A DNA stretch of 64,000 nucleotides from positions 46,654,698 through 46,718,697 of the forward strand of contig JALGQZ010000011.1 of NCBI GenBank assembly GCA_023105745.1. The letters run 5' to 3'. Positions within the stretch are counted from its first letter, which is position 1. Every line of letters begins with the position of its first letter. Source of the DNA: Austropuccinia psidii (lineage: Eukaryota > Basidiomycota > Pucciniomycetes > Pucciniales > Sphaerophragmiaceae). Position numbers and translations under genes: made by a program. Of this stretch, positions 16,878 to 52,612 are shown piece after piece. A model generated the notes under the pieces. It was not told the origin of the DNA, searched no databases, and saw only the letters and a list, made by a program, of their open reading frames with translations.

Positions 16878-19114
16878 CCTCTTGCAGGTTTGGTTCTATA
16901 CATTTTGGCATCTTGTATGTTTGTCAGGTTTGTGTCAGATGTTCCAACTTGTGGTAAGTTTGAATTAACATCCAGTACTTCATAAATTATATCAATATTA
17001 TTAATTTGTGCATTAATTATATTGATTTCATCACTTTCAGAGCTTTCTGACTCTTCTGTCTCTTTTTCAGAGTCAGATTCCTCTTCTTTGTCATTGTGGC
17101 TTTCTGTTTCCATAATTTCATTAATCTTTGCTTTTTTAAGGCAATTATTGGCTAGGTGTCCAATACCTCCACATTTATGGCATTTTCTTTGCTCATTATT
17201 GTTGGATGTATCGGGCTTTAAGGATTCTTTTGATTTATATTTTTTGATAAATGGTTTATTTGGGCTTTTAATGTCCAATTTTTTCCAAGTCCTGCCAATT
17301 TTTGTTCTTGTCACTATATCTTCTAGTGCATTTATATACTCTTCTGTGGAGCATGGTTCTATACACCTGCTTCTTAGGGCATGTTCTAGTTCCCCTCCAC
17401 ATTTTTTAAGTATTTTCATGTGCACCATCTTTTGTGACATTTCTGGGTACAGTGCATTAAGCCTTTCAGCTTGTTTCAAGAACCAAGTTAAAGGTTTGTC
17501 TTTCTCTGGGTCAAAGAAAGAGTTTTCAAATGCATTTTCTATCTTATACCTCCAGGCATCATTTTCCCACTTGGTGATTATTTCTTGTTTCCACCAAGAC
17601 CAGGTATTTTCACCATTTGTTTGTCTTATGCCATAATACCATCTTTTTGCAGATTTCTCAAACAATGAATGTAATCTTGCAGTGATTAATTCATCTGGTA
17701 TGGCATAGTCTTCTTGTAACATGTCAATTGTTTTAATAAATGACATGTGGTCATATTCACCTTCTCCTGTGAATGTTGGCCATTCCTTCAATTGAGGTGC
17801 TTCCTTCATTAAGACTTGGTTATTATCTTGGTGACTCAAGTCTGTTATGAAAGGATTTGACAATTCCTCTTTTGTTTTAACAGGGCTTCTTATATGAGAA
17901 AATGGTGTTGATAACTTTGGCATATTTAAATTAGCCTCATTAATTTTATCCATTTTTTCAGTAATAAGCCTTATTTCACTCTGAATATCATCTTTCAGAT
18001 GCATTCTTGCTTCATCACTTTTTTCCACATGGTCCAAAAGTAATTTTTGGTGTGATGAAGTCTTTTCTTCAAATTTTTCTACAGAAATACTTAATTTATT
18101 TAATTTTTCTGTAAGATTGTCAATACTCACATCATAATTGATTGTCAAAGTCTTGTCTTTGATATCTTTTATGTATTTATACAATTCTTGTTGTCCTTGT
18201 ATTAATTTTTGAGTATTGTCAATTAAATTCTTTGGTTTATTATTTTCAACAATAAACTTAATGTTGTCAATTTCTTTCTTGTTTTGCACAACAATTTTTG
18301 TTAAAGAAGATAAATTGTTATTTATTTCTTGTAGTGATAATAAACTATCTTTAATTTCTTTTAGAGGTAATATACTATTTTTAATTTCTGTTAAAGTATT
18401 TAAAACATCTTTGGACAAGGTTATTTCTTTGGGAAATGAGGTTGTCTCATTCTTTGCTCTTCCTTGTCCTTGAATTCCATCAAGGTTCTGGCCATGTTGA
18501 AAACATTTTCCATGGCATCCTTTTGGATTCTTGGGATCCTGTAGCTTGGGGAATATGGTTTCCTCCAATGCTTTTTCTTGTTCTTCTTTCCTTCTTATGG
18601 AAGTGGGCTGGCTTGGGGCTTGCTGGTAGAAGCTACTGGGGCTTCTTCCTTGGTTGCCTCCCTCTTTTTGGCGTGGTAATCCTTGATTTTTTTTATTTGA
18701 GGTTTGGATGACAGTGGATTCCATCCATTGGAGTATTTCACTATCTCCTCCTCTTTGAGGAACTTTTTCAGGATGTGCCAGGAGTTCATCACTCCTTGGT
18801 GTATTTGAGGCAGCATTTCCCAATCTTTGTCCTTGTACACTGTGTAATACTGCTTGTACTGGCTCATGTAGATGTCTATTTGAGCCCTCTGAATGTGATT
18901 TGTACCTATTTGAGTTACTCATACTTAGCTCCAATTCAGGTTCAGATATCATGGCCATTTCTGGGACTTGCCTTTGGGATAAGGCACTTCCTTGTGTGGA
19001 TTCTGTTCCACTGGGGATATTGCCCTTTCTTTTCCCTTGTGAGGGATCAGTTATACCTCTGAGTCCAGCTCCATCTGATTGGATGGAGTATTGGGAACCT
19101 CTTTTGGTAGTCAT
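16853..19114 (-). CDS. Gag of A2 (753-codon open frame)
   Basis: The ATG at 19114 lies inside the inferred ORF1 intron. Residues 1-220 are low-complexity and overlap ORF1 in another frame. Residues about 225-400 are long Lys/Leu/Ile-rich coiled coils. The capsid-like part follows with [29 protein letters not shown] and [11 protein letters not shown]. The CCHC zinc knuckle [14 protein letters not shown] lies near residue 660, then an acidic Glu/Ser run. The frame ends early after KPARG because of a 1-base deletion; in A1 and B1 the same point reads on into protease. Gag packages the RNA. Translation may truly begin downstream of the ORF1 stop (see findings). Confidence 0.85.
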
Positions 19115-28531: not shown

Positions 28532-29951
28532 TGTCAGCCTGTGACTCAAAACCAGAGCACAAGCATGACAGCCAAAATACCATAAACCAATGGTATACCC
28601 AAAATACCACCAAAACATGGAGCTGAGCCAAATTAGCTCAAAAGGTATCAGAAGAAAGAGGAAACTTACCTCTTTCTGAAAATATAAGTCCCATCACCAT
28701 AGGACAAGAAACAACAAAGTTATTCCTGCTCAAAGTTATTGCTGAGCATAAACCTTAATTTTCACCTCTCATCTAAAATCTAGAAGGAGAGGCTTAACCC
28801 CATCAAATGGGTATTCAAAATGAAGCTCTAAGCCAGGGCTATCCAATGGTACCAGCCAAACTGAGCTAGCACCAGTATTACTTGAGTTATGGTCAAATTC
28901 AGACCAAATAAGGGTGAACAAAACATTCACCTCTCATCTAACTTTTACAGTTTTACTGTGAGATACCTAAAGTGGGGTCTTTTTGGAAAGAGCACAATCA
29001 GGGCTATCTGGTGGTGCCATCCATTTCCTCATAACTCAACTACAACAGAAGTTATTGGCCAAACAAGCTTAATAAAGCTTTTGACCAGACCACGCCAATG
29101 TACAAAAATACTTGTACATGGGATAACTTTGTCATATTTAATGATAACCATGTCAAGTTGGGTACCATTGTGTAGAGCTCATACAGGGCTATTCAATGAA
29201 CCAACGTTGAGCTTGATATCTCAAAAAGCGACAGAGCTATGACCATTTTAAAGTCAAAATCCCACCTGCTGTCAGATAAAGCCTTACCATGGGATAATAT
29301 CCCATAACCATGAATATGAGGTGTCAAATAGACGAAGAAGCATGTTTTTACTTCAATACTGGGGTCCCATACAGTTTCTGTACAGCATTCTACGCGTCAT
29401 ACACGTCAGAATCAGGCTGTGAGGTCCCCAGATGAAACTTTTCACCCTGTATTGGTGAAAACTGCCCAGATGTGGTTTCAAAACCACATCTGAGCCCAAT
29501 ACAGGGTATACAGACTGTTTGAAAACCACAAGCCTGTCCTGGAGAGTGAAAAATCTTCACTTCCTCTACGTGGAAAGGTCTAGCAGCCTTTCCACCTCAA
29601 TTTCAGGATAAAAGGAGGGCTTTTCACAGCCAAAAACCTTTCCTCATCCTGCTCTTGAATAACCTACGTAGTAAACTGTCAAAAACAGTTTTACTCTTGG
29701 TTAAATAATCAGGTATACTCTTAATTTAAAGTATTGTAGTCTTTATTATTGTAATCCAACAGGTAAAGCTGCACCCAGGGCTTTCAACAGCGCTCACCAC
29801 CACTATATCTCTATAGTAAAGCCCTTTAAATCTTAAATTAAATCATTTATTATCAATCTTATCATCTTTTAAAACCATTTTTACCGTGTCACAGTCATAG
29901 TTAAAGCGTGTAAATACTCATATACACCTTTATCATAGACTCAGCCTGACA
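28532..29951 (+). repeat. 5' LTR of B1 (family III)
   Basis: The LTR has 1420 bases, from TGTCAGCCTGTGAC to GACTCAGCCTGACA; its TGTCAG and CTGACA ends are inverted repeats. It should contain the promoter. There are no genes; short open frames inside are not conserved. Confidence 0.93.
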
Positions 29952-29970
29952 TTTTGGGGGCCTGGCCGTG
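29952..29970 (+). other. Primer-binding-like motif of B1
   Basis: TTTTGGGGGCCTGGCCGTG follows the LTR without a gap and equals the motif of families I and II apart from the first bases. TGG two to three bases inside would pair with a tRNA CCA end; I could not assign the tRNA. Confidence 0.6.
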
Positions 29971-29997
29971 TTTTTTTTAACTTTTTGGACCTTACAA

Positions 29998-30543
29998 GTA
30001 AGTCTTTTCTCTTTTTTATGACTTATTAACACATTGTTTTATTTTTTTTAGGCGTAATTTCCATTTAAATATATATATTTTATATATTTTTATCTTTTTC
30101 ATATACTCATATTATAAAAGAGTATTTTTCACGTGGCTAATACCCACTGAAAATAATTATTTTTGGCGTGTTTTGTATATAAAAACACATAAGCCATCAA
30201 TAAGTCCTGTATTCTTGACTGAATAAGGACACCTCTGACTGAAAAACCATCAGTTGAGGCGTGGATTAAGTGTATTGTTGACTCAATAACACTTATACAA
30301 AACCACTTGTACAGAATACACTTGAAAACCACAAGTGTATCTGTGGGATACTGGCACACAAACAGTGTGACAGGGTACCAAAAGCTGTAATTCTGACGGG
30401 GAATTGTTGATTAAACCACACTGTCATTATACAGGGGCATACTGTAATAATATACAAGCCCAGAGGCCATTCTTAAACGTGCAAAACCAGCCTTGTAAGA
30501 AGTCTTAACTGACATAAGCCCTCTTTTTCCTGTCTTGATTCAG
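29998..30543 (+). other. Leader intron of B1; splicing makes the ORF1 start codon
   Basis: A consensus donor GTAAGT at 29998-30003 follows CTTACAA, and a pyrimidine-rich acceptor TGTCTTGATTCAG ends at 30543. Joining gives CAA-TGGAAGAA, that is ATG GAA GAA. B2 has the same design (CAA before GTGAGC at 55680, TTCAG before TGGAAGA at 55125). The intron (546 nt; 555 in B2) holds no gene. Splicing is inferred from sites conserved in two copies. Confidence 0.65.
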
Positions 30544-31612
30544 TGGAAGAAAACTACATCCCACTTGAAACCCAGTCACAGGCCAACACACCAGTGACAC
30601 CCTCAGAACCAGAGGGCAGCAAGGGTAAAGGAAAAAGGCTTAGTGAAGGCCTCATTACAGCCAAGAAGTGGACACCAATAGCCACTCAGAGGAGTAGAAA
30701 ACCACGAAACTCTGCTTCAATACAAGGTAAACCAACCTTAACCACTTGTACAGGGAAGATTACAATTATTAACCCAGTTGTAACCTCCAAAGGCAAACTG
30801 CCCAAATCAGCAGATAACAAATTTGTACAAGGCACAGTCAAAGGTAAATACCCTAAGAACATAAAGTTTTTGACTGCTTGCAAACACTTATATGTCCCCT
30901 GCATACCTCAGAGACCTTGGCTTCCAAAGGAACCAGCCAGAGGATAGAGCAGGAATGTCTAGAACCAGAAGACCTGAAAGAAGACACATTGGACACAGTG
31001 GTGGATGGCAAAACAATGAGGGAGATAATATCAACCTTGCCATTCACACTCCAATTCAACAGAAACCTCAAACCAGAAGACTGGAAGGATATGGATCAAG
31101 TTCTTCAAATCCACCAACTCCTCAAAGATGTGTTTCAATGGAGCATGGAAAACAAGAGGTTCAACCTAGCAACTCACTGGGCAGAACTGGGATCAAGTTG
31201 CCAGAAGATCTGTCTCAAAGAGATAGACTTCAAAGACCTTATGGTAATCACCAAGGGTTGGAATCCTACCAGGCAGCACAGACTCCTGGAGGCAAGGGCA
31301 CAGAGGATAAGGGAGAATCAAGCCACTATCCAAGCTATAGAAGAACAGTTAACCCAGACAGGGCCTACTCAGATTCCTTCAGGTTCACAAGGAGCATGCC
31401 AAATCAGCTCTCCAGTGGCTTGACACCATTCAGAAACCAGCAGATCAGTGGCCAAGAGTCACCATTCTTCACAATTCCAGGAAGTTTCCAGGAGAAGACA
31501 AGGCAACAAGGGCAAGAACAAAGCCTCCTTCAACCAGAGGAGGAAAGAGTCAGACCCCATGATCCAGAAGCTGTTAGATTTGGTAAAAGAAGTACACAAG
31601 AACCAGAAGTAG
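30544..31612 (+). pseudogene. ORF1 of B1: spliced 294-codon overlapping ORF, one stop
   Basis: No family is recognised. Model: A of exon 1, exon 2 30544-30726, exon 3 30912-31612; 885 nt including stop, exactly the length obtained in B2. Exon 2 is Pro/Ser/Lys-rich with GKGKR and RSRKPR basic patches. Exon 3 is acidic then helical: LKPEDWKDMDQVLQI, FQWSMENKRFNL, CQKICLKEIDF, KGWNPTR, a long Arg/Gln helix, a basic segment SRRRQGNKGKNK and the final QKLLDLVKEVHKNQK. TGA at 31421-31423 is the only stop; B2 has TCA. Its frame differs from Gag, which it overlaps fully. Between copies, changes favour silent sites in this frame. It could be an RNA-binding or regulatory protein; no function is assignable. 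Confidence 0.65.
30727..30911 (+). other. ORF1 intron 2 of B1, with tandem acceptor CAGAG
   Basis: The donor GTAAAC follows ACAAG at 30726; the acceptor CTCAG ends at 30911. Exon 2 ends after one codon base and AG completes Glu, entering the ORF1 frame. A second AG two bases on (30912-30913) would instead enter the Gag frame. The Gag-frame ATG at 30892 lies in the intron, so retained and spliced RNAs start different frames. Donor and CTCAGAG acceptor are identical in B2 (54942 and 54758). Confidence 0.55.
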
Positions 31613-32298
31613 TTGTAAACCACTCTAGAATCAGTAGTCCTAGTAATAGAAACATTACCCCCACTCAGACTGAAAATAACATTATCACATCTGAGAGTAA
31701 CATCAACAGTGACACACTGTGGTTACAAATGTCCCAATATGCTGAGCAATCTGCAAAGCAGGCTACAGAATTTGCAGCTGCCCAAGAGAGGATGAGAAAA
31801 ACTCAAGCCTCATTGGAGCAGATAGTTAAAAACCTTCAGGAAGGATATTCTCAACTGAGCAAAGCCTCTGAAGAAACCAACAAGAGACTGAATCAAGTCT
31901 CTGAAGAACAACACCATAGTAGCAGGGACAGGGAGTGTCTGAACCAAGACATCAACAAATTGTTTGATGCCTACCATAGCTTAAAGCCCCAACCACAAGG
32001 CCAAGCTATGGAGAATCCATATCAACCAGATGACATCAAACCAGATGCCATGTTGTTGAATAAGGCAAGATCTCCATTACAATACCAGGATGGAGATGGC
32101 ATGTCTTATTCAGAGAAGGAAGCCTTGAAACAGCTTCCTGAGGCCTCAAACTGGCCCAAATTCTCTGGATCAGGAGAATATGATCATATGGAACTCATAG
32201 ATTATATTGATGGACTCTTCATTGATGTACCAAGCATACCAGATTACTGGATTACTGCTAGACTGAATACTGCATTTAAAGGTCATGCAAGTATATGA
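30892..32298 (+). pseudogene. Gag of B1, upstream part, ending in a nonsense codon
   Basis: The frame opens at ATG 30892. Codons up to about 240 are low-complexity and overlap ORF1; they may not be translated as Gag, and ATG 31729 (MSQYAEQ) just after the ORF1 stop is a good alternative start. Coiled-coil residues follow (QASLEQIVKNLQEG, ASEETNKRLNQV), then the capsid-like WPKFSGSGEYDHMELI. TGA at 32296-32298 replaces the Trp codon kept in B2 (IWYTEMKE). The same frame continues in the next entry. Gag builds the particle. Confidence 0.82.
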
Positions 32299-32307
32299 TA
32301 CACTGAA

Positions 32308-35300
32308 ATGAAAGAAATCCATGGCAGAAGAAATTGGCCATGGTGGAAGAGTCAAATAATCCAAAAGCACAGTAATGGAACTTGGATATGGCAAAAGACC
32401 ATGTCATTTGAAAATGACATATACTCTGTGGACAAAGATCCATATGAGTGGTGTCTTAGACAGTCTAAAAGACTTAAAGCCATTGATCCCCAAATGAACA
32501 TTCAAATGAGGAATCATAAACTTCTGACACAACTGCCAGGAGAACTAGAGCATGCAGTAAAGTGCAGATGCAACCAAAATTGCACTCTAGATGATATAGC
32601 CAATACCTTACAAGACATAAGGAAAAGGACTAATATAGGGAAATTCACCCCATATAGAAGCAGTAGTTTCAAAGAGAAACAACCTTTCAGGGTGGAGTTT
32701 AAAGACAGACCCAGAGAAAGAGTGGCAGAAGTGGCAAAGAAGAAGAATTCTTGTCACAATTGTGGTTCAACAGACCACTATGCCAACAACTGTCCAAAAG
32801 CAAAGAAGAAAGTCTATGCTATAGAAAAAGTCCCTGAAGAAGAACCTCCAACAGAGGATTCTGAATCAGACTCTATGGGTGATGCCATTAGAGAACTATC
32901 TGATGAGGATCAAGACCCAAGAGAGGAATTTCTAGTGGAATACCAAGAGGAAACCCCACTAGAAATCCAGGATATACAGTTGGAAGCAGGCATGCCACAA
33001 GACACTGCCAACAAGAATTTGTGTAAACATACACAAGATGCACAAACATTCCTGGTTACACCAACCAAAGGAATGGCATACATACATGGAACAGCCACAA
33101 AAATGACTGTATGTATTGACAATGCTCAGCATCCACTGATCACTGACAGTGGAGCACACTGCTCCATAGTGGCCAGAAATTATCTGGATAACCACTTCCC
33201 AAACTGGGAAAAAGAACTCTTGCCCACCAGGGCAAAGAACTTTAAGAGTGCATCTGGAAAGATGACCTCTATTGGGACAATTATCAAAGAGATAATTATA
33301 CCCCACAGAAAAGGTAATATCAGACTCAACCCAGAGTTTGGAGTGCTTGAAGATGCCCACATCCAAGGGTTTTTACTGGGAACAGATTACCAGAGGATGT
33401 ATGGCATAGATATTTACAATAGTAAAAATAGGCATATTACCATTGGTACTAACAAGGAAAAGAAATTTTCTCTTGATATATACCAGATATCTTCTCAGGA
33501 CCCACTGGAAGAACTTCTGAAAGAATTCAGAGAGGGACAGTTTAGCACTACCCTCACCAGTAAACAAAAGTTAGGTTTACTGAAGATGCTGAGGAAGAAT
33601 ATACCAGCATTTGCCATTGGTGAAGAACCATTAGGCAAGATCAAAGGCCATGATATAGAACTATATCTGGATGTGAAAAGGCCTTATACACCCATGTTAA
33701 GGAGACCTCCTTACCCAGCAAGTCTGGAGACCAGGAAAGAGATTGAGAAACATATCAATGAACTCCTGGACATGGATGTCATTAGGAAGATTGGACATAA
33801 TGAAATAGTGGAAATCACCACTCCTGTCCTAATCACCTGGCATGATGGCAAGTCTAGATTGTGTGGAGATCTCAGAGCCCTGAATAACTACATAAAAGCA
33901 GACAGGTACCCTATACCAAGGATACCTCATGCCTTGGATAAGCTAGCCAAAGCCAAATACATAACCAAGATGGATTGTATGAAAGGCTTCCACCAAAATG
34001 GAGTTAAACCAAATTCCATGAAGTTGCTCAGAATAATATGCCATATGGGCATATATGAGTACACCAGGATGCCATTTGGCATCAAGAATGCACCAGCCCA
34101 CTTCCAAAGGATGATGGACACCATATTTCAAGAAGAAATAATGGAAGGCTGGATGGTAGTGTATATTGATGATATCATTATATACTCAGAGACATGGGAA
34201 GACCATGTACAATACATAGACAGAGTTCTAAGTAAATGTACACCCATCAATCTGAAGATTTCACTTAAAAAGTGTAATTTTGGCCAACAAGAGCTACTAG
34301 CTCTAGGACACAAAGTCTCAGGCCTTAGTCTGGCAATTGACCAGAACAAAGTAGCAGCAGTACTGCAAAAGCCAGTACCAAAGAACATCAAAGAGATGCA
34401 ATCTTTCCTTGGATTTGCTAGCTACTATAGAAACCACATCAAAAACTTTGCTCACATAACTAGTAGTTTATACAAGTTATGCTCAAAGGATGTAGTTTTT
34501 GAAATAACCAAGGAAAGGAGGGAAGCATATGAGAGTATCAAATATGAACTCACAAATGCACCTGTGCTCATCTTGCCTGACTTTGAACTACCATTCAAGT
34601 TATATATAGATGCAGCATGCAGCCAAGGCTTGGGAGCAGCCCTTCACCAAAGACAAATTGTGGATGGTGAACCAAGAGAAGGTGTAATATGTTACATCTC
34701 TAGGCAGCTGAAAGATTCAGAAGCCAGGTATGGGGCCACCCAGACAGAATGTGTATGTCTAGTCTGGGCTCTAGAAAAACTCCACTATTATTTGGAGGGT
34801 GCAGTCTTTGAAGTCTACACAGACCGCACAGCCTTGAAGTCTTTACTAAACATGAAGACTACTAATAGACACATGCTGAGATGGCAAATAGCCATCCAGG
34901 AGTATAGAGGGAACATGACCATCATATACAAGGAAGGTAAAAGCCATACCAATGCAGATGGCCTTAGCAGATGGCCACTGGACAATGTCAAAAGCAATCC
35001 AGCTTATGACCCTGAAGTTGCTGCAAAAATTCCTATCCATTTTATGGAAATAAATAGGAAAAAGAACTTCAGATTCTCTGAATGGGCACCAGGGAGTGGT
35101 ACCCTTGACAGTGGAAACACTGATTCAGAAGGGACAGAAACCCCCATACTGGGAATAAGTTCCTCAGAATTGCACAATGAATTTTTCAATGCAGTACTGA
35201 AATCCTATGCTAAACACAAACAGTGTAGCATACTACTCCAACTCCTTCAACAAAAATACAGGAGCCCAGAACTGGAAACCCAGCTGGAGGAACCCTGGTT

Positions 35301-36747
35301 GAGGGCCTATAAGGACAATAAATTCTTCCTTATAGATGGCCTGATTTATCACAGAGAAAAGCACACCAGTGCACTCACAGTGATAGACACAGACCACATC
35401 TCCTTAATCCTGCAGGAATGCCATGACTGCCCCTACATGGGACACATGAGTGAGGACAGGACGAAAGAGAGGGTAGCAAGCACAGCTTGGTGGCCCAAGT
35501 GGGAGCAAGAGTTGAGTGAATACATCAACACTTGTGAAAGATGCCAAAAGGCAAATAGAAAACATGGGAAAAAATATGGGTTACTTCAACACATAGAAGA
35601 ACCCAAACACCCATGGGAAACCATCAACATGGACTGGGTCACAGGACTTGTCCCAGGAGGCAAAGAAAACTACAATGCCTGCCTAATCATAGTAGATAGG
35701 TTCAGCAAGAGCATGAGATGTCTACCATCCCATAAAGAGGACACAGCCATGGACACTGCTCTGTTATTTTGGAATAACATCATATCCACCTGTGGAGTCC
35801 CTAAGATCATAATTAGTGACAGGGACCCAAAATTCACATCTGAATTTTGGACCAATTTATATGAAATGCTAGGCACCAAGCTTGCTTTTTCCACAGCTTA
35901 CCATCCACAAACAGATGGCCTAGCTGAGAGGATGATCCAAACAATGGAGGACATCCTCAGGAGGTTCTGTGCCTATGGCATGGAATACAAGGACCATGAG
36001 GGATATACCCATGATTGGGTCACCCTCTTACCAGCAGTCCAACTGGCTTATAATACAAGCCAGCACTCTACCACAGGAAAAACACCTGCACTGGTAGAGA
36101 AAGGGTGGAATCCCCTTTTACCTGTGGATCACTTGAAGAAAAATCTTCTGACCATCCACCCCACAGCCAAAGACTTCCATGATATGTGGAAGAAAGCCTG
36201 TGATACTGCTGCCAAATGCATAGCTGAGGCCAAAGAGTATAATAAGCAGAGGTGGGACAAATCACATATGGAACCTGATTTCAAGGAAGGGGACCAGGTG
36301 TTAGTGTCTACACTAAACTTTAACAATCTCAAAGGACCCAAGAAAATGAGAGACTCATTTGTAGGGCCCTTCACTATCATTAAGTTGATAGGGAAGAATG
36401 CAGTAGAGGTCAAGCTCACTGAGGAGTTTTCTAGGAAACACCCAGTCTTTCCAGTAAGCCTGGTCAAACCATACTTCCAAACAGAAGAGGATAAATTCCC
36501 CTCCAGGAAGAAAAACATCACTCCACCAGAAATAGTGGAAGTAGAAGACTCTCCTGGACCTGTGAGTAAAATCATCAGGGCCAGAAAAATCAGACTCAAT
36601 GGGAAGGATCAGAGACAATATCTAGTCAGATTCAAGAACCAGACAGCTGACAAAGACAAATGGTTGGCAGAGGATGCCATACCAGATGGGAACCTCCATT
36701 TAAGGAGATTCAGAGCCTCTAGGAGGACTGAACAGTCTCATCAATGA
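32308..36747 (+). CDS. Gag C-terminus-protease-RT-RNase H-integrase of B1
   Basis: This intact 1479-codon frame continues Gag after the single TGA. In order: rest of capsid; CCHC knuckle [14 protein letters not shown] (residues 149-162); protease DSG at 280; RT with [13 protein letters not shown] and catalytic YIDD at 619-622; RNase H with first Asp about 768 and [16 protein letters not shown]; integrase zinc domain (His 1039 and 1046, Cys 1076 and 1079); catalytic Asp 1109, Asp 1171 and Glu 1207 with the exact 35-residue spacing; GPF at 1353-1355; chromodomain-like [15 protein letters not shown] near the end. All catalytic residues are present. Only two CG dinucleotides occur in 4.4 kb. It could supply enzymes if the stop is read through or a sister copy is intact. 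Confidence 0.95.
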
Positions 36748-36771: not shown

Positions 36772-38210
36772 TGTCAGCCTGTGACTCAAAACGAGAGCAC
36801 AAGCATGACAGCCAAAATACCATAAACCAATGGTATAGCCAAAATACCACCAAAACATGGAGCTGAGCCAAATTAGCTCAAAAGGTATCAGAAGAAAGAG
36901 GAAACTTACCTCTTTCTGAAAATATAAGTCCCATCACCATAGGACAAGAAACAACAAAGTTATTCCTGCTCAAAGTTATTGCTGAGCATAAACCTTAATT
37001 TTCACCTCTCATCTAAAATCTAGAAGGAGAGGCTTAACCCCATCAAATGGGTATTCAAAATTAAGCTCTAAGCCAGGGCTATCCAATGGTACCAGCCAAA
37101 CTGAGCTAGCACCAGTATTACTTGAGTTATGGTCAAATTCAGACCAAATAAGGGTGAACAAAACATTCACCTCTCATCTAACTTTTACAGTTTTAGTGTG
37201 AGATACCTAAAGTGGGGTCTTTTTGGAAAGAGCACAGTCAGGGCTATCTGATGGTGCCATCCATTTCCTCATAACTCAACTACAACAGAAGTTATTGGCC
37301 AAACAAGCTTAATACAGCTTTTGACCAGACCACGCCAATGTACAAAAATACTTGTACATGGGATAACTTTGTCATATTTAATGATAACCATGTCAAGTTG
37401 GGTACCATTGTGTAGAGCCCATACAGGGCTATTCAATGAACCAACGTTGAGGTTGATATCTCAAAAACTGACAGAGTTATGACCATTTTAAGGTCAAAAT
37501 CCCACCTACTGTCAGATACAGCCTTACCATGGGATAATATCCCATAACCATGAATATGAGGTGTCAAATAGACGAAGAAGCATGTTTTTACTTCAATACC
37601 TCATATGTCAGTCAATACTGGGGTCCCATACAGTTTCTGTACAGCGTTCTACGCGTCATACACATCAGAATCAGGCTGTGAGGTCCCCAGATGAAAATGT
37701 TCACCCTGTATTGGTGAAAACTGCCCAGATGTGGTTTCAAAACCACATCTGAGCCCAATACAGGGTATACAGACTGTTTGCAAACCACAAGCCTGTCCTG
37801 GAGAGTGAAAAATCTTCACTTCCTCTACGTGGAAAGGTCTAGCAGCGTTTCCACCTCAATTTCAGGATAAAAGGAGGGCTTTTCACAGCCAAAAACCTTT
37901 CCTCATCCTGCTCTTGAATAACCTACGTAGTAAACTGTCAAAAACAGTTTTACTCTTGGTTAAATAATCAGGTATACTCTTAATTTAAAGTATTGTAGTC
38001 TTTATTATTGTAATCCAACAGGTAAAGCTGCACCCAGGGCTTTCAACAGCGCTCACCACCACTATATCTCTATAGTAAAGCCCTTTAAATCTTAAATTAA
38101 ATCATTTATTATCAATCTTATCATCTTTTAAAACCATTTTTACCGTGTCACAGTCATAGTTAAAGCTTGTAAATACTCATATACACCTTTATCATAGACT
38201 CAGCCTGACT
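36772..38210 (+). repeat. 3' LTR of B1 (family III)
   Basis: This 1439-base LTR is nearly identical by eye to 28532-29951, with about 18 extra bases near 37600 (CTCATATGTCAGTCAAT). Its last base is T, not A (CCTGACT), so the terminal TG...CA is imperfect. GTATG follows at 38211-38215. Confidence 0.93.
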
Positions 38211-38215
38211 GTATG

Positions 38216-39055
38216 GGATCCCAGTATTGACTGAAATATGAGGTATTGAAGTAAAAAACAAGCTTCTTCATCTATTTGAAACCTCATATTCATGATTATG
38301 GGACATTATCCCATGGTAAGGCTGTATATGACAGCAGGTGGGAATCTGACTTTAAAACTGCCATACCTTTGTCAATTCTTGAGGTATCAACCTCAAAATT
38401 GGTTCAGTGTGTAGCCCTGGCTGTTCTCTACACAATGGTACCTCATTTGATATGGGTATCATTCAATATGGCAAAGTTATACCATGTACAAGTTTTTTTT
38501 ACATTTGCGTGGTTTAGGCAAAAGGCTGTATTGAGCTTATTTGCCCCATAACTTTTGTTCTAGTTGGGCTATGAGGAAATTGATGACACCATCAGTTAGC
38601 CCTGATTGTGCTCTTTCCAAAAAGACCCCACTTTAGGTATCTCAAGCTAAAACTGCAAAAGTTAGATTGGAGGTGAATGTTTTGTTCACCCTTATTTGGC
38701 CTGAATTTGGCCATAGCTCAAGCAATACTGGTGCTAGCTCAGTTTTCCTAGTACCATTGGATAGCCCTGGCTTAGAGCTTCATTTTAAATACCCATTTGA
38801 TGGGGTTAAGCCTCTCCTTCTGGATTTTAGATGAGAGGTGAAAATTAAGGTTTATGCTCAGCAATAACTTTGTTATTCTTTGTCCTATGGTGATGGGACT
38901 TATATTTTCAGAAAGGGGTGAGTTTCCTCTTTTTTTTGATACCTTTTGAGCTGATTTGGCTCAGCTCCATGTTTTGGTGGTATCTTGGCTATACCATTGA
39001 TTTATGGTATTTTAGCTGTCATGCTTGTGCTCTGGTTTTGAGTCACAGGCTGACA
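38216..39055 (-). repeat. 3' LTR of B2, proximal part
   Basis: On the minus strand this LTR piece begins TGTCAGCCTGTGAC at 39055 and runs to the B1 insertion. With 27950-28531 it makes 1422 bases. A short open frame on the opposite strand (38276-38551) also occurs in the other B2 LTR but not in B1, so I do not call it. Confidence 0.92.
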
Positions 39056-44439: not shown

Positions 44440-44444
44440 TCCTG

Positions 44445-46079
44445 TGTCACAACCACGAGTGTGACCCTCCTCCTTGATGGTTGCGGCAAATCAACCTGGA
44501 GCCAAGTTGCGGCCAATTGGCCAATTGGCCCCCTTGGGTGTTCTATGGCACCCATGGCCATATCCTGCTGTCATTGGCCTTCTTGGCCAATTCCCACTTC
44601 ACCAACCCCCAGGCCTTCATCTTTGATTTTGGGCCTGGGGGGTCATTTGTTCTTCTAGGGGCCTCCAGGCCCCCTAGCCATCATCTTTGGATTCAGGGCC
44701 ACCCCTTTCATTAATGGGGTTTTGGCCTAAATGGCCTTTTGGGGTCATTTAGGCCCCCTATGGCTCCTACGGCCTGTGGGCCGTGATTCACAGTCCGCGG
44801 TCCGTAGGCCATTTAGGCCCCTTTTGGCCTAATCCAATGAGGCCAAAAGGGGCCAGCCAGGTGGGTCCCAAACCACAATTGGGCCCACCTGAGCCATTTT
44901 TTGGCTATCACCCCCTTGGACCCAAAAACGACTAAGAACCTCATGGACACCTTTTTGGCCATAAATCCCATAGGACCCAATTTTGGCCATGGACCACCAT
45001 GGACCAATAGCTCAGCCATGGCCTCTGGCAACCACCAGAGGCCACCAGATCAGCTCATCCCGTCTTTCCCCTCAACTCCAGGGGATTTCCTCTTTTCCTC
45101 CATACCATCCATACTCAAGGTTGCAGGCATGGTGCATATATGTTATTATATACCATTATGCACCATTTTTGCTCAGCAATCCAATGGTGACGTTTTCAGG
45201 ATCCAATTCCACCTTCCCAACTCAAGGTCTCAAATCCCAACACCCATTTTGAAGGAGGATTAATCAACTCATCAGTCTGACAAGTTATGGCGGCAATCAG
45301 AAGACTCTTCAGGGATCCCAACCACCTGTATCTGCAGGAGTTGGGTTGGCACAATTCATTCAGGAGTATTCAAGGACAATCCTCAAGAGGTATTACATCA
45401 TTTCAACCAGTTGTCAAGGCATCAAGTATTCAATACTCCTTTGGACAACCCAATTCATCCGTACAGGCCTCATACAATCAACCTGTATGGTCTTGGCCCA
45501 ATTGGGTCATTTCATATTCCACTGTGAGAATTCCATCACACAGTTCAATTTCAAGATAGCCAGAACTGTATTTCCCGATCTGGACAATACAGCCATTGAT
45601 CCACCTTCCAGGATCAATCTTTCAGTTTTCACATATACCGGCTACCTTTCAGCACCTGGGGACTTTTTCCCCAGTTAATTAATATATTGGATTTATTTTT
45701 GTCTCTATTTTCTTTTACATTATTAAAGTTAATACTGATAATCTTAAGTAAGTCATTAGCACCTTTTCTCTTTCTTTCTTCGCCTGTCAGTGGATATTGG
45801 TGGTCATATCCTTTACTAATTCCATTGTTCTTTCTGGCAGGTTGAAACAGTGAATTGAGGATTCACTTGGTTGGCTTCTTGGCTTTTGGCTTCCTTTTAT
45901 TTTTGGCCTCTGGCTTCGTTATTCTTATTCTTTGTTATCTTTGGCATATTTGTCCTTTCTCTTAATCCTGCTTAAGAAATATATTCCAGAGTATTTCTTA
46001 TCATCTTTTGCAGCCCTCCAAGTGAGTTCTTGATTCCTGAGTGCCAGGCCCTCTTGCTTCCATAAGAGCCCCTGTGACA
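44445..46079 (+). repeat. 5' LTR of C1 (family IV)
   Basis: The LTR has 1635 bases and starts and ends with the perfect inverted repeat TGTCACA...TGTGACA. The first 600 bases hold about 25 GGCC tetramers. A CATATACC box at 45633-45639 lies about 35 bases before the hairpin CTGGGGA-CTTTT-TCCCCAG (45656-45674) and the inferred RNA start. It is shorter than the 3' LTR because short GGCC-rich stretches are missing. No gene is called. Confidence 0.93.
45656..45686 (+). promoter_or_regulatory. Inferred transcript start: hairpin plus self-priming arm of C1
   Basis: A perfect 7-bp hairpin (45656-45674) overlaps AGTTAATTAATATA (45673-45686), the exact reverse complement of 46081-46094 just after the LTR. 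In Tf1/sushi elements the mRNA 5' end folds back on the PBS to prime reverse transcription. By that analogy RNA should start near 45673. Both parts are conserved in C2 (about 58584-58615). Confidence 0.5.
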
Positions 46080-46842
46080 TTATATTAATTAACTCATAAT
46101 TTATTTTCATTTTATTCATTCATTCTTCATCAATTTCATTCATTCATTAATCAAAATTATGACTCTTTAATGCTTATGAAAATTTATGATTCTTTGTCAT
46201 CTCTCAATTTTCTCTCATTCATTTCTTCATTCTGAAAATTGAAAGCTGACCCAAAAATTTTATTTTCTGTTTATCTTTTCAATCTTAATCTCAATCATCA
46301 ATCTCATTTTATCCTTCATTTCAGGCGTCTTGTTATTTTGATTCTCAGATTATTCATCAAATTATCCAGACACGTTCTTCATATCGGGATTCAATTTGAT
46401 TTTCTCTTCAAGAATTTTGATTCAGAAAGAATTCACTTGATAATTGATTTGATTGACTGATTTGACATAATTGATATTGACTTCAAGATATTTGATTGAC
46501 CTGAAGATTTTTCCATTGATTTGGTGAATTTCACATCAAGACTTTGACATAAATTGATTTTTTACTCAAGAATTCATTTGACTGATTGATTTTCACTGCA
46601 AGATTTGATTTCATTGATATTGATTGATTGATTTTATTGACTTCAAGATTTTCATTGATTTTGATTTTTGACTTCAAGACTCATCTGATTTGATTGATTG
46701 ACGTACGTGAAGACTTTAATTTGATTCATCGATTTTTCCCCTCAAGATTTGATTTGATTTGATCCTCAAGACTATTTTGGTTTTGCCTCAAGTTTTATTC
46801 AAGTTTTTATTCTTTTTATTTAAATTTTACTCTTATTAAATC
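46080..46842 (+). other. Leader of C1 with self-complementary PBS and TTGATT repeats
   Basis: TATATTAATTAACT (46081-46094) is the candidate primer site. The rest up to the Gag ATG has no gene. From about 46430 it is a loose tandem array of TTGATT, TGATTGA and TTCAAGA words, pyrimidine/T-rich. C2 has the same leader in reverse at 57472-58212. Confidence 0.65.
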
Positions 46843-48160
46843 ATGCCACTCCAACACTCACCTCCTGCAAGACAGACAAGATCCCAGGCCCGAACTCAAG
46901 CTGTTCTTACTCCTACTTCAAGAGTTCCTCTTGATGGCACCCCAGCAGTTCCTCAACTGAGGGCCCAATTAGATAGAGGACCCCGCATGGAAGGAAGGAA
47001 GAGTGCCAAGAAGATCAAATTCTTTTTCAGGAGTAGTTGGCGGTTTTCCAGGCATGTCAAGGACTAGTTTCAAAGGTCCAGGTGAAGATGGTGAAGAGGA
47101 GGAGGAGAATTCTGTGGAAGAGGAAGAGTCTGAAGGTACTGAAGGTGTTCCTGCCCCGGTGGGGGCATCCCAAGGTACTGGAAGACCAACTCTAGCCCAG
47201 TCTGATCAGCCTGTCTCTCACCAATCTGAACCGTCTTTATTGGCCATCATGCAGCAAATGACTCAGATCATGGCCAATCTTCAAGCAGCTTCTTCTTCTG
47301 ATTCATCAAGACCACCAGCCTTCAAGACTCCATCTATGAAGGCACCAGAATGCTTTGATGGGACTCAACCCTTCAAAGTCAGAAGCTTTATTCAGTCATG
47401 CCAGCTTATCTTTCATAATGATCTGGAAAGCTTCTCTCAAGACAGGAAGAAGGTTCTTTATGCCACTTCATTTCTTATTGGCAGGGCTGCAAAATGGATT
47501 GAGCCTTATCTTTCTAATCTCACCAATCAAGACTCAAGTTATCTTCTCAATTCTTGGCCATTATTTGAATCCCAACTCTTGACTTTATTTGGAGACCCAA
47601 ATGAAGTTAGAAAAGCTGAAGCGGAGTTGGACGGCCTTAGAATGAAAGAAGGTGGCCATGTTTCACTATACATAGCCAACTTCAGGAGTTTGGTTTCAAG
47701 ATTTGGGGATTGGGGAGAAAGAGCTCTCATCCATCATTTCAGGAAGGGATTGCCATCCAGGATTCTGGATCAATTGGCCTCCCATCCTTCAAATATTGAT
47801 TCTCTTCAAGACTTAATGGACGTTACCCTGGAACTTGAAACCAGGTACCATGAGAGGCAAAAGGAGAAGAATCATCATCAAGAGAAGAAGCCTGAAGCCT
47901 CAAAGTCAAGTTCTTCTCATCCTCAAAATTCTTCAAGCTCAGGTCAAAAGAAGAAGAAGAATTTTCAGAAGAGGGAAAAGCCCCATTCTTCTTTGTTGAA
48001 TAAAGATTTCAAGCTCATGAACTCTGAAAAAGAAAGAAGCATCAAGGAGGGTCTTTGTACCTATTGTGGTGGGAAGCATAGTCTTGAGTCCTGTTTCAAA
48101 AGGCCCCAAAACAAGCTTACCCAACTGTCAGGCAAATTTCCCAGCCAGGGAAAAGCCTGA
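46843..48160 (+). pseudogene. Gag of C1 (family IV), one frameshift
   Basis: ATG 46843 opens MPLQHSPPARQTRSQAR, typical of this family as I remember it from A. psidii. A deletion near 46990-47010, where C2 has extra codons (EAPSRKEGK), shifts the frame, which resumes from about 47003 as SFSGVVGGFPG and an acidic run, then a capsid block with ECFDGTQPFKVRSFIQ, LLTLFGDPNEVRKAEAEL and RKGLPSRILDQLA, a Ser/Lys-rich linker and the zinc knuckle CTYCGGKHSLESC. It stops at TGA 48158-48160. The capsid block fits the retrotransposon gag fold of chromoviruses. It packages the RNA. Confidence 0.9.
48148..48154 (+). promoter_or_regulatory. Candidate -1 ribosomal frameshift heptamer G GGA AAA
   Basis: Read in the Gag frame the bases are G GGA AAA, of the X XXY YYZ type, two codons before the Gag stop. 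The -1 frame is open across it and leads straight to the protease. C2 has the same heptamer at the same place (26947-26941). A downstream RNA structure was not verified. Confidence 0.55.
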
Positions 48161-50391
48161 GTGAAGATCATGTTGTGTTCAATGGTCTTCACAGTTTTCC
48201 TTCCAGAGCACAATTGTGCATTCTGAATACTGGTGTAAAAAATTCTCTTAAATTTTTTGTTTTCTCTTCTCTTTCTGATGTTTTTTACAGTATTCTCATT
48301 GATTCTGGTGCTACACACTCATTTATTGCAAAGTAGTTTGTTCACAAGTACTCATTGACTACGTCAGAACTTCCAGAGAAGATTCCCCTTATCATTCTTG
48401 ACTCCTCTGAGTCTCCTTCCTTATTTGTGACTCACCATACTAGATATATGGTTGAGCTCCCTTCCTTCCCAAGCTTTGAATGGGACTTTTTAGTCATTGA
48501 TACTCCCAAGGGAGAAGACCTCATATTGGGCTTTGATTTTCTCAATCATTTTAATCCTTCTATTGATTGGAGGCAAGGGTTGATCACCTTTAATCCTGAT
48601 CATTTGGACTATTCTGATCCTTCTAATTCTGTCCGTAATGACTTTTCTTCTGCCAAATCTTGTGCAGCTCTGGTTGGTGATTCTAGAACACCATCATTTC
48701 CGTCTTCTGTCCATATTCCTTCCCTTAATTCCCCACAGTCATTACTATCTCCTAGAGCTGAAGTCTTCAAAAAGATTCAAGATGTTGGAGAAGATAATTC
48801 TGTATCTTCACTTCACCTCTTATTTGGGAATATGGACCTTCCTCCTTCATCTTATCATGACTCCCTGGAAGAGTTGTGGGATGAAGAGGAAGAGCCAGAA
48901 GAAGTAGAAACCGTGATGAAGGTTGTCCCTTCTGTCTATCACCAATACTTGGATGTATTCTCCAAGGTGAAAGCAGAGAAACTTCCTTCTCACCGCGCCT
49001 GTGATCATCATATTGAGCTGGAGGGGTCTCTACCTCCAGTTGGGGTGATCTACTCTTTATCCAAACAAGAGTCAGATACACTCAGGGCCTACATTTCAGA
49101 GAATGTAGAGAAAGGTGTCATCCGGCCAAGCTCCTCTTCAACAGGAGCACCTGTCCTCTTTGTCAAAAAGAAAGATGGTGGCCTCCATTTGTGTGTTGAT
49201 TACCGCAAACTCAATGCTGTTACTAGGAAGAACAAGTATCCTGTTCCTCCTATGAATCACCTTCTCAATGTCTTTAATGGTTCTTCTATCTTCTCCAAGA
49301 TTGATTTGCGTGGTGCATATAACCTGCTCAGAATCAAGGAGGGTGATGAACACTTGACTTGTTTTAGAACTAAATATGGCAGTTATGAATACTTGGTTAT
49401 GCCATTTGGGCTCACCAATGCTCCTGCTTCTTTTCAAAATCTTGTCAATGATATCTTTCAAGATCTTCTCGATGTTTATGTTGTGGTTTATTTGGATGAC
49501 ATTATGGTCTTTTCCAAATCTGAGGAAGAACATGTCACTCATGTGTCCACTGTTCTTTCCAGACTCAGAGCCAATAACCTTTTTGCTAAGGCCTCCAAAT
49601 GCCTGTTCCATGTTTCAAGCGTGGAATATATTGGTTATGTAGTTTTTTCTGAAGGCCTCAAGATGGACCAAGCAAAAGTCCAGCAGATTCTCAATTGGCC
49701 GCCTCCAAGAAACCTCAAGGCTCTTCAATCCTTCCTTGGTTTTGCCAACTTCTACCGCCGTTTCATCAAGAATTATTCAAAGAAGATCAGTTCACTCACC
49801 AGTTTCCTCAAGAAATATTCCTGTTTTCCCCTCAATGAGGAAGCCCTTAGTCAGTTTCACCAACTCAAAGAGGCTTTCACCACCGCTCCAATCCTTTCCC
49901 ACTTCAATCCTTCTCTACCCACCATTGTAGAGACCGATGCATCAGATTATGCCTTGGGTGCTGTACTGAGTCAGGTCTCTGATTCAGGAAAACATCCCAT
50001 TGCATTTGACAGCCACAAGCTTATCCCATCAGAGCTCAATTACGAAATTCATGACAAGGAACTCCTTGGTATTGTCTGGGCTCTCAAGTGCTGGAGGGCT
50101 TTTCTTCTTTCACTGTCTTCCCCTTTTGAGGTTCTCACCGATCACTCTTCCCTTCAATACTTCATGACCTCCAAAGTACTCACTCGCCGTCAAGCCCGTT
50201 GGGCTGAATTCCATTTCTCAATCACTTACCGCCCTGGCCGCCTAGCTACTCTTCCGGATGCCTTATCACGTCGGGACGACGTTTATCCGGAGAGGGGGGA
50301 GGATTTCATCAGCAAGAATCCAATGAATTTTCAGCAAATCATTAAGCAAGACAAAGTTCAACCCTCAAAGTTTTTTGCAGTCAAGGTGTAA
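48161..50391 (+). pseudogene. Protease-RT-RNase H of C1 (one internal stop)
   Basis: In the -1 frame of Gag: ILNTGVKNSLKFF, the protease active site LIDSGATHSF at about 48297-48326, then a TAG at 48334-48336, after which the frame is open. RT has [34 protein letters not shown] and the catalytic YLDD. RNase H has [30 protein letters not shown] and [10 protein letters not shown], ending with PDALSRR. A TAA at 50389-50391 cuts it from the integrase in the same frame. This is a typical chromovirus order, and all RT and RNase H catalytic residues are visible. Confidence 0.92.
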
Positions 50392-50403
50392 TCTTTTTCA
50401 AAT

Positions 50404-51810
50404 TTGATTGACTCCATCCAGAAGAAATTATGGCAAGATCCCCAGTACAGAAGTATCCTTGAAGATTTGGGTAAAGGTAAATCTGTCCAAGATTATTCTC
50501 TTGATTCCTCTTCCCAACTTCTTCTCTTCAAAGATCGGGTTGTAGTCCCAAATGACTCCACAATTCAACTTAGTATTCTTCAAAAGCATCACGATTCTCC
50601 TCTAGCTGGCCACCCTGGCCAAGAGAAGACTCTCAAACTTGTCAAGCGGGATTTCCACTGGTCTGGCATGTCTCAATTTATCAAGGATTATGTTTCATCC
50701 TGTCAACAGTGCTCAAGAAACAAGAATATTCACCACAAGAAGTTTGGATTCCTCAAACCTCTTCCAATTCCAAATGGTCCTTGGATTTGTCTTTCAATGG
50801 ACTTCATCACTCAACTGCCGCTGTCCAATTCCTTTGATTCAATCCTGGTCATAGTGGACAGATTCTCAAAAATGGCAGTTTTCATTCCAACAATGTCTTC
50901 AATCACTTCCCTGGATTTGGCCCATTTATTCATCAAGAATATCTTTTCAAAGCATGGCCTTCCATTAAGCATTGTCAGTGATAGAGCTTCCCTCTTTGTT
51001 TCTTCTTTTTGGACCAATCTTTGTCAGCAGCTCAAGATTTCAAGAGACTTGTCAACTGCTTACCATCCAGAAACTGATGGACAGACAGAGAGGGTAAATC
51101 AGATACTAGAACAGTATCTTCGGATGTATGTCAGTTATCATCAAGATGATTGGAACACCTGGCTCCCTCTGGCTGAATTTGCCTACAATAATTCTGATCA
51201 CTCTTCAACCAAGCAATCCCCGTTTTTCACTGTTTATGGAAGAGATCCGCATTTTGATTCAGTTCACATCACTCAAGATACTCCTGCTGGAAAGTTATCA
51301 ACAAAAATCCAATCAGTACAGCAAGATGTCAAGAGAGAACTTGAAGCTTCCATAAACCGGTTTAAGAGGTATGCAGATAAAGGTAGAGCAAGTCCACCTG
51401 TTTTCAATCCTGGCGACATGGTATGGCTTTCTTCCAAGAGTATCAAATCAACCAGACCCACCAAAAAACTATCCGAAAGATGGTTGGGTCCCTTTCCAAT
51501 ATTGAAGAAAGTCAGTTCTCATGCTTACCACCTCAAGCTTCCATATCTCCCTTCTGGAACCAGTCAAGACATCAACAATCCCAAATCGGCATCAAGAACC
51601 TCCTCCTCCAATTACGATTGAAGAAGAAGAGGAATGGGAAGTCTCTCAAGTACTGGATTCAAAAGCTCAAGAGGAGAAAGCTATGGTATCTGGTGGAATG
51701 GAAAGGATTCAGCCAAGACCCAGAAAGATCCACTTGGGAACCAGCCAAAAACCTCAAGAATTGTCCTGATCTTGTCAAAGATTTCCATTATTTGTATCCC
51801 GACAAGGCAG
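50404..51810 (+). pseudogene. Integrase with chromodomain of C1 (C-terminal frameshifts)
   Basis: The frame from 50404 to 51621 encodes the HHCC domain (HHDSPLAGHPGQEKT, CQQCSRNK), the core with MDFITQLPLS, VSDRASLFVSSFW and TDGQTERVNQ (D,D35E type), and the GPF motif in WLGPFPI. The frame then shifts twice: an acidic linker (PPPPITIEEEEEWEV) is in one frame and a classical chromodomain (LWYLVEWKGFSQDPE, STWEPAKNL) in another, up to about 51800. The chromodomain of chromoviruses binds methylated histone H3 and directs insertion to heterochromatin. The frameshifts disable this copy. Confidence 0.9.
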
Positions 51811-52612
51811 GACGCAATTCTTCAGAAGCTTTATATTTTATGGTGCTTGGTGGGGAGAGGAATTACCAAAAGTAAGTCCCACTCCTGGTATGCACCTTTA
51901 GGGGTATTCTACTCCTCTTTGTTGTAAGCATCACCTTGGCCACTCTGTGAGCACTTTGCAATTTGGACACAGATTCTTTGGCCTGGCTTTCAACATCAAT
52001 TTCAAAATTATGGCCATTTTTCACTTGGGGAAATGGACCTTTCATTTTCATTTTTCTTTCCAAGTTTTCCAATTCAAGACACTCCTTAATTCAAATTGAT
52101 ATCCTTATTTATGGCACTGGAGGGATTGGCAACTCCTAAAAGTAAGTTCCTCTCCTGGTGTGCACTTCCCTGAGGGGTCTACAATCTTTTCAAAACATCA
52201 CCTTGGCCACTCTGTGAGCACCTGGCATCAAAATCTTTCCTTCCAGGTCCTTGGCCACTTTCAAATCAACCGTCAAAATCCATGCTGAAGATTTGGATCC
52301 CCCTTCAAAATTTTTTCTTTTTTTTTATTTTTTATTTCCCTTTTCTGTTCCTTTATCTTTATTTTTTCTTTTATTTTTATCTTTATGCCAAAATTCTACG
52401 TCAAACTCAATCCTTCAAACATTTTCAAGCCAAATGTCAAGAGAAGACCACGTCAACCTCAATTCATATGCCAACATTATTATCAGTACAAAATTTTCTT
52501 TTCAAAATCAAAATACCTCTGTAACCCCTCTGTCCAATCCGTCTCAACAGCCTCAACAGGCTTTTACCTTATCTTGGTGCTCAGGAGCTCACCATTCAAG
52601 GTAGGGGGGTAC
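51811..52612 (+). other. 3' untranslated region of C1 with a duplicated block
   Basis: There is no gene. A block of about 90 bases (CTCCTGGTATGCACCT ... CACTCTGTGAGCAC) near 51868-51955 is repeated at about 52131-52222. A T-rich tract lies at 52300-52380. AAGGTAGGGGGGTAC at 52599-52612 is the polypurine tract before the 3' LTR. Confidence 0.65.

Follow-up and report, generated by a model that had tools for sequence, protein, structure and literature searches.

A spliced reading frame overlapping gag in a Ty3/Gypsy retrotransposon family of the rust fungus Austropuccinia psidii appears to be an accessory gene under protein-level selection

We analyzed a 64,000-nucleotide stretch of the genome of the rust fungus Austropuccinia psidii (the window; G000:C11:46654698-46718697), which holds two copies, B1 and B2, of a Ty3/Gypsy long terminal repeat (LTR) retrotransposon family, family III. 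To our knowledge, fungal Ty3/Gypsy elements are usually treated as plain gag-pol elements. Judged from its sequence, ORF1 of this family, which is assembled by splicing and runs over gag in another frame, is a real accessory gene under protein-level selection. It is very probable that the spliced ORF1 overlaps the first ~240 codons of what is likely gag, with ORF1 likely made only from spliced RNA and Gag or Gag-Pol likely only from RNA that keeps its introns. An initial annotation of the window had proposed a selected, spliced ORF1 and had also suggested that Gag may start downstream, near 31729. That interpretation was probably half right: right on ORF1 and wrong about the start of Gag.

We found the splicing of ORF1 recorded in genomic DNA. 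The genome searched comprised 1,015,390,075 bases in 84 contigs. The junction 30843|30912, left when the 68-nucleotide (nt) intron 2b (30844-30911) is exactly absent, occurs at 18 places genome-wide by a pattern allowing up to 3 mismatches; the reversed control pattern occurs at 0, and the intact intron 2b donor pattern occurs at 7860 sites. Among 13 loci listed, 5 lack exactly 30844-30911. For intron 1 (29998-30543), the junction pattern was found at 5 places and the intact acceptor at 1830 sites, and reading other loci added 3 intron-1-less copies (L074, L077, and L078), giving 8 in total. Exon 1 of L077 and L078 is diverged beside this junction. All 8 copies also lack both intron 2b and a 66-nt in-frame cassette, intron 2a (30727-30792). 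The remaining 10 of the 18 comprise 8 without 2b alone (intron 1 is unreadable in one of these), 1 without 2a and 2b that keeps intron 1, and 1 without 2a and 2b in which intron 1 is unreadable. By pattern, 14 places lack the cassette, 5 of them by coordinate among 2b-less copies. Loss of the cassette leaves the frame unaffected, and the conceptual ORF1 proteins without and with it are 311 and 333 amino acids long.

Removal of intron 1 joins A(29997) to TG(30544-30545), which is the ORF1 start codon (A|TG). As for Rev/Rex-like genes, the start codon is present only after intron 1 is removed, on the basis of the 8 DNA copies. Removal of intron 2b joins the ORF1 frame and takes out the ATG at 30892, the likely Gag start codon. 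The splice sites are well kept: among 64 copies keeping intron 1, GT is present in 64, AG in 63, and the flanking A..TG in 62, and among 53 copies keeping intron 2b, GT and AG are each present in 50.

These copies support the first junction of the initial annotation (29997/30544) and alter the second. With the junctions 29997/30544 and 30726/30912 as first proposed, B1 does give an 885-nt ORF1, made up of 294 codons and a terminal stop and broken by a single internal stop; ORF1 of B2 likewise has 294 codons and a terminal stop, and its single internal stop is a different one. However, instead of one second intron at 30727-30911, DNA copies of spliced RNA show 30844-30911 plus the optional 66-nt segment. 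With up to 3 mismatches allowed, the junction 30726|30912 was found nowhere in the genome, although 7 of the 120 annotated models listed skip the alternative exon accordingly. A pattern search for 30792|30912 likewise found 0 places in the genome, although 10 of the 120 models listed resemble it. Similar donor-like words (AAGGTAAA and AAGGCAAA) flank the cassette. In B2 the second of these (AAGGCAAA) also reads as a GTAAAT donor, and in some annotated models an exon ends at this point.

In 4 of the 8 intron-1-less copies, 97-100% of the LTR could be aligned ahead of the spliced leader, and in the other 4, 42-50% of it. The simplest account of these copies is that spliced RNA underwent LTR-primed reverse transcription. 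We placed 17 of the 18 spliced copies on a tree of 48 copies built from region 30912-32190 (of 80 loci, 6 were too short, one of them spliced, and 26 were thinned out). They imply 15 changes of state, at least 9 of them forced by well-supported branches, and they do not cluster above shuffled labels. Thus, splicing appears to have recurred. Because the junction patterns were built on B1, divergent spliced copies are undercounted. That spliced DNA copies are few relative to unspliced sites is consistent with unspliced RNA being packaged preferentially, but both selection after insertion and undercounting may contribute as well. Seven loci stand outside the spliced count. Under a coverage rule, L051 lacks intron 2b and L059 lacks intron 1, with no junction printed for either. 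The other five (L044, L047, L055, L060, and L064) have lost ~64-74 nt within or close to intron 2b, at differing positions that are off the splice sites; they came from the ORF1 protein search, which favours exons brought into one frame. In one spliced copy, L072, a long tract of a short repeat breaks up the exon 4 region of ORF1 and is visible in translation as a repeating unit.

Selection on ORF1 is seen in a comparison of B1 with B2. Substitutions fall at ORF1 third positions in 18 of 24 cases in exon 2 (30544-30726, coding for ORF1 only; p=3.6e-5), in 8 of 12 in 30727-30843 (p=0.019), and in 32 of 61 in the overlap with gag (p=0.0016), where gag position 3 accounts for 14 of 61. The intron core has 1 of 6 at the ORF1 third position. 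Within 30912-31383, the 47 substitutions comprise 28 missense, 17 silent, and 2 stop changes in ORF1, and the same 47 comprise 34 missense, 11 silent, and 2 stop changes in the gag frame. Our recount of the last 63 codons agrees with the one first reported: of 12 substitutions, 8 leave the ORF1 protein unchanged, 3 are missense in ORF1, and 1 is nonsense there, and in gag every one is missense. In B2, 31421-31609 corresponds to 44403-44215, and the range first given (44439-44212) starts 36 nt further upstream.

We also estimated the ratio of nonsynonymous to synonymous change (dN/dS) in both frames over genomic copies, as had been suggested. The DNA set comprised 80 loci, of which 74 with sufficient overlap were aligned and 6 were dropped; as a bias in their choice, 30 were found via the ORF1 protein and 12 via the junction patterns. 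Two groups of loci found by DNA similarity show the same stop pattern as the whole set. The main estimates use variants present in at least 4 copies, and in the overlap only gag-altering changes were compared for ORF1 (dNN/dSN). On this basis, ORF1 gave 0.22 (0.13-0.35) in exon 2; 0.28 (0.10-0.79) in the cassette, when kept; 0.45 (0.18-1.12), which is not significant, in exon 3 (30793-30843); and 0.37 (0.26-0.54) in the overlap across the 74 copies. The overlap ratio was 0.72 (0.58-0.89) with variants in at least 2 copies and 1.08 (0.95-1.22) with all variants, a rise that would follow if decaying copies were the source of many rare changes. Along exon 4 (30912-31612), which overlaps gag and carries one premature stop in B1, the ratio was 0.39 in 30914-31042 and 0.29 in 31043-31213. 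It was 0.27 in a basic patch and 0.06 in the C-terminal helix, the last 21 codons being the most constrained of ORF1. The ORF1 stop codon (31610-31612) is kept in 68 of 74 copies, as TAG in 65 and TAA in 3. A protein search with ORF1 returned 744 matching proteins, 120 of which were listed. Comparing indels between ORF1 and gag, a further suggestion, cannot discriminate between the frames because an indel in the overlap breaks both. Thus, the intron-less DNA copies, the positions of substitutions, and dN/dS all bear out the claim that ORF1 is spliced, overlaps gag in another frame, and has been under protein-level selection.

Gag likely starts at the ATG at 30892, inside intron 2b. The codon at 30892-30894 is ATG in 51 of 53 copies keeping intron 2b. 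The leader of B1 (29640-30891, where 29640 is a guessed transcript start) is almost without ATG, holding 1 when 15.9 are expected, which is under all 2000 dinucleotide shuffles, together with 22 CAT. Observed and expected ATG numbers in the leader are 3 and 15.3 in B2, and 1 and 9.5 and 2 and 11.4 in two cousin elements in the window, C and A, respectively. Control regions are undepleted, with 19 ATG in the LTR (19.5 expected) and 38 in pol (38.7 expected). In 48 intron-keeping copies, 29960-30891 holds a mean of 3.4 ATG (range 0-11) and 16.7 CAT.

The gag frame running from this ATG (30892-32298) is open through the overlap. B1 has 0 gag-frame stops there, versus 8.1 expected under synonymous shuffling of ORF1 (P=5e-5), and in the control exon upstream it has 8 versus 5.9 expected. 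Across the 74 copies, the overlap carries 0.97 stops per copy in the gag frame, 0.91 in ORF1, and 12.42 in the third frame, and in the shorter exon-2 stretch directly upstream (63 copies) the gag frame carries 5.95. Thus, both overlapping frames are kept open beyond chance, as expected of dual coding. The converse test is weak: if gag is taken as given, ORF1 of B1 should hold 1.4 stops and has 1, so that the openness of ORF1 is unsurprising by itself. The gag frame of the overlap matches 769 annotated proteins, of which 120 were listed; among these, 95 start near MSPxxLRDLGFQ by a strict regular expression and 108 by a loose one. Because gene models tend to begin at ATG, this count is not independent evidence of initiation. 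Beyond the overlap (31729-32190), the gag ratio is 0.64 (0.48-0.86). A protein-only test points the same way, to control by ORF1: common gag variants in the overlap lie at gag position 1, equivalent to ORF1 position 3, in 47 cases versus 19 at position 2 (p=1.8e-5), and variants of ORF1 bear no trace of constraint by gag (p=0.27). As the overlap shows no overall amino-acid constraint on gag, gag seems mostly to follow ORF1 there. The contrast between the frames is reversed in 31343-31495, where gag-silent changes are freer (codon permutation, 0 of 2000); this segment was picked after seeing the data, and 6 of 232 equally long stretches are as extreme.

These observations suggest how one element could encode both proteins. 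On unspliced RNA, ribosomes would scan the ATG-poor leader as far as the ATG at 30892 and make Gag. On fully spliced RNA, they would meet the ORF1 ATG first and make ORF1. Splicing would thus act as a two-protein switch, creating the ORF1 start codon and removing the likely start codon of Gag.

Several points weigh against ORF1 as a selected gene with this switch and a role of its own. The mechanism is drawn from DNA copies and sequence. The DNA comparison was made within one rust genome, and the listed protein relatives are named A. psidii MF-1. Many annotated gene models are cut at other junctions. Cassette loss could be partly due to repeat-mediated deletion, since short repeats flank it and 9 of the 14 places are pattern-only. 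Within ORF1, constraint is mild in the GWNP segment (31214-31342; dN/dS, 0.69) and is not seen in the linker (31343-31495; 1.55), and the frame test of the intron core had too few variants for use as a control. In the overlap, the gag ratio shows no amino-acid constraint, being 0.78 (0.53-1.18) for variants shared by 4 or more copies and 1.37 (1.09-1.73) for those shared by 2 or more. Avoidance of new gag stops is confined to variants in 4 or more copies (ratio, 0.34), the ratio being ~1 once rarer ones are counted. A Foldseek search with AlphaFold models of ORF1 gave no match, and the models are of low confidence (mean predicted local distance difference test scores of 51.5 and 62.2). Because the fold models are poor and no solved structure matched, the function proposed for ORF1 is based on layout and composition. 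Lastly, family III ORF1 aligned to its counterpart in cousin C by hhalign with E=0.032 over only 14 columns, and a small number of gag models, described below, join exon 3 to the gag frame.

Two alternatives to the proposed arrangement concern how the overlap is read. ORF1 might be an alternative N-terminus of Gag, reached by frameshifting of the ribosome or by use of a second acceptor (CAG|AG|) that lies 2 nt further on. This is what those models, 4 of the 120 gag models listed (P0138, P0146, P0160, and P0236), would suggest, as they join the end of exon 3 to DLGFQ. However, a genome-wide pattern allowing up to 3 mismatches found no place where 30843 is joined to the second acceptor, versus the 18 for the ORF1 junction, and the residue that needs the second AG is N, not D, in 29 of the 120 models by regular expression. 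A Gag fusion also sits poorly with the well-kept stop codon of ORF1 and with its last 21 codons being so constrained, and we consider it very unlikely. The other alternative is that of the initial annotation, in which the overlap codes for ORF1 but not for Gag, whose start would lie near 31729. It gains from overlap substitutions that track ORF1 codons and from a gag ratio (dNN/dNS) whose interval spans 1 and which exceeds 1 with rarer variants. Therefore, the claim that gag lacks protein-level selection here holds insofar as no overall amino-acid constraint is shown, and the two-frame comparison did find ORF1 to be constrained. Yet the gag frame is stop-poor and kept open rather than dead. 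The depletion of ATG in the leader up to 30892, the conservation of that ATG, and the reversed frame contrast in 31343-31495, a post hoc segment, likewise speak against a start near 31729, which we regard as extremely unlikely.

Other alternatives accept the overlapping gene and differ on what its product does. We infer that ORF1 may be an RNA-binding regulator of the RNA of its own element, in export, splicing balance, or packaging. ORF1 would come from fully spliced RNA, and its basic patch (SRRRQGNKGKNK) and C-terminal helix are among its most constrained parts. The same basic patch and the predicted helical segments of ORF1 would suit a cofactor of particle assembly or a nucleic-acid chaperone, not a regulator of RNA fate, and the occasional copying of spliced RNA into DNA could be taken the same way. 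However, a bulk particle protein would more naturally come from gag-pol RNA, by argument and not by test, and none of three ORF1 proteins scanned had a zinc knuckle or capsid match; such a cofactor is possible but doubtful. ORF1 might instead counter host defence, such as silencing, with no direct role in replication. Viral accessory genes expressed from spliced RNA often do so, and the extreme abundance of the element fits, but we think this unlikely. Profile searches of the ORF1 product, as had been advised, were carried out and found nothing above cut-off in Pfam and no significant match by sequence to solved structures (best E of 0.16). A scan of IMG/VR with ORF1 found none. No relation of ORF1 to Rev/Rex was found by sequence or by fold, the fold models being of low confidence.

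The layout proposed for family III can be set beside known systems. In complex retroviruses, tat, rev, or rex is expressed from multiply spliced RNA and the structural proteins from unspliced RNA. By analogy, the overlapping frame, a small protein from fully spliced RNA, and the basic patch of ORF1 recall these viruses. The present element differs in its fungal host and in that a sequence relation was not found, and RNA binding and export are conjectural for ORF1. A fungal Ty3/Gypsy element might have independently evolved the plan of complex retroviruses, with a Rev/Rex-like regulator and a single splicing decision that toggles between early regulator and late Gag-Pol; we hold this to be unlikely. 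If it were true, thousands of copies and rare reverse-transcribed spliced RNAs would record the switch between regulator and Gag-Pol in the genome. Plant Ty3/Gypsy elements of the Ogre/Tat group carry an extra ORF1 upstream of gag, which is not known to overlap gag in another frame, and an intron near the protease/reverse transcriptase junction. The present family may resemble Ogre in combining a Ty3/Gypsy element, an extra ORF1 before gag, and an intron within the element. It differs from Ogre in that ORF1 runs over gag and gains its start codon through splicing, while the likely start of Gag is intronic. In the barley element BARE1, alternative splicing yields a Gag-only RNA and no new protein (PMC3735527). 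BARE1 is alike in that alternative splicing of LTR retrotransposon RNA decides which protein is made (PMC3735527); the present element would make a new protein, and DNA copies of its spliced RNA exist.

Gypsy-type families dominate rust-fungus genomes, according to passages of two reports (PMC8063080 and PMC12210899). The main text of PMC12210899 has no words beginning with gag or splic, and the passages of PMC8063080, not searched for those words, do not describe an extra gene or splicing of Gypsy elements. Our literature searches returned no title describing such a gene, a result that holds for those searches alone. In this rust genome of one gigabase, a family numbering thousands of copies would thus carry a selected overlapping gene whose start codon is built by splicing. 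Splicing documented by DNA copies offers a direct way to study how RNA is divided among regulation, Gag, and genome. Public annotation presents these loci as "hypothetical proteins" that number in the hundreds and are cut in different ways.

Cousin elements A and C share the layout of B1: each has an ORF1-like frame whose phase with respect to gag is the same. In C, on the minus strand, this frame lies at 18424-18867 with one internal stop, and the Gag ATG is at 19114; in A, on the plus strand, it lies at 4712-5191 with the Gag ATG at 4417, but A is decayed and this frame is shifted near its end. Given the ORF1-like frame, C has 0 gag-frame stops versus 4.5 expected (P=0.002) and A has 0 versus 2.4 (P=0.04). 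Conservation between A and C is greatest for the ORF1-like frame (95.9 bits), followed by gag (63.9) and the third frame (27.7). The C frame has 876 protein relatives, 120 of them listed, and 44 of those listed begin with MSQYKQYY. ORF1 of family III and that of cousin C may be homologous. Within 18424-19114 (minus strand), the cousin-family models P0267, P0307, P0330, and P0331 join the Gag N-terminus (MTTRRGSQYS...) to the ORF1-like frame, a hint of splicing there too.

B1 lies on the plus strand between a 5' LTR (28532-29958) and a 3' LTR (36772-38217) that are 97% identical. Its pol has the order of reverse transcriptase, RNase H, and integrase that marks Ty3/Gypsy elements, with Pfam matches to RVT_1 (517-673), RT_RNaseH (761-869), Integrase_H2C2 (1030-1087), and rve (1104-1203). 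These domains and a candidate CCHC zinc knuckle of Gag, which scored 20.0 bits, under the Pfam cut-off of 20.8, lie in the remaining gag-pol (32299-36747). The otherwise continuous gag-pol frame of B1 is split by a single stop codon at 32296-32298, and B2 is without that stop. The 39 other scored genome matches of 30544-31612 (40 were scored among 1953 candidates) are all 99% identical, a sign of a recent burst. B2, on the minus strand, is split by an inserted element. Its sequence runs from exon 2 to the insertion point at 55125-54286, with the Gag ATG at 54777, and the end of its ORF1 lies beyond the insertion at 44440-44212. The inserted element, a different LTR element with frames at 46973-51621, occupies 44441-54285 within B2 ORF1, and a short duplicated CAGG(A) is present in the B2 sequence on both of its flanks.
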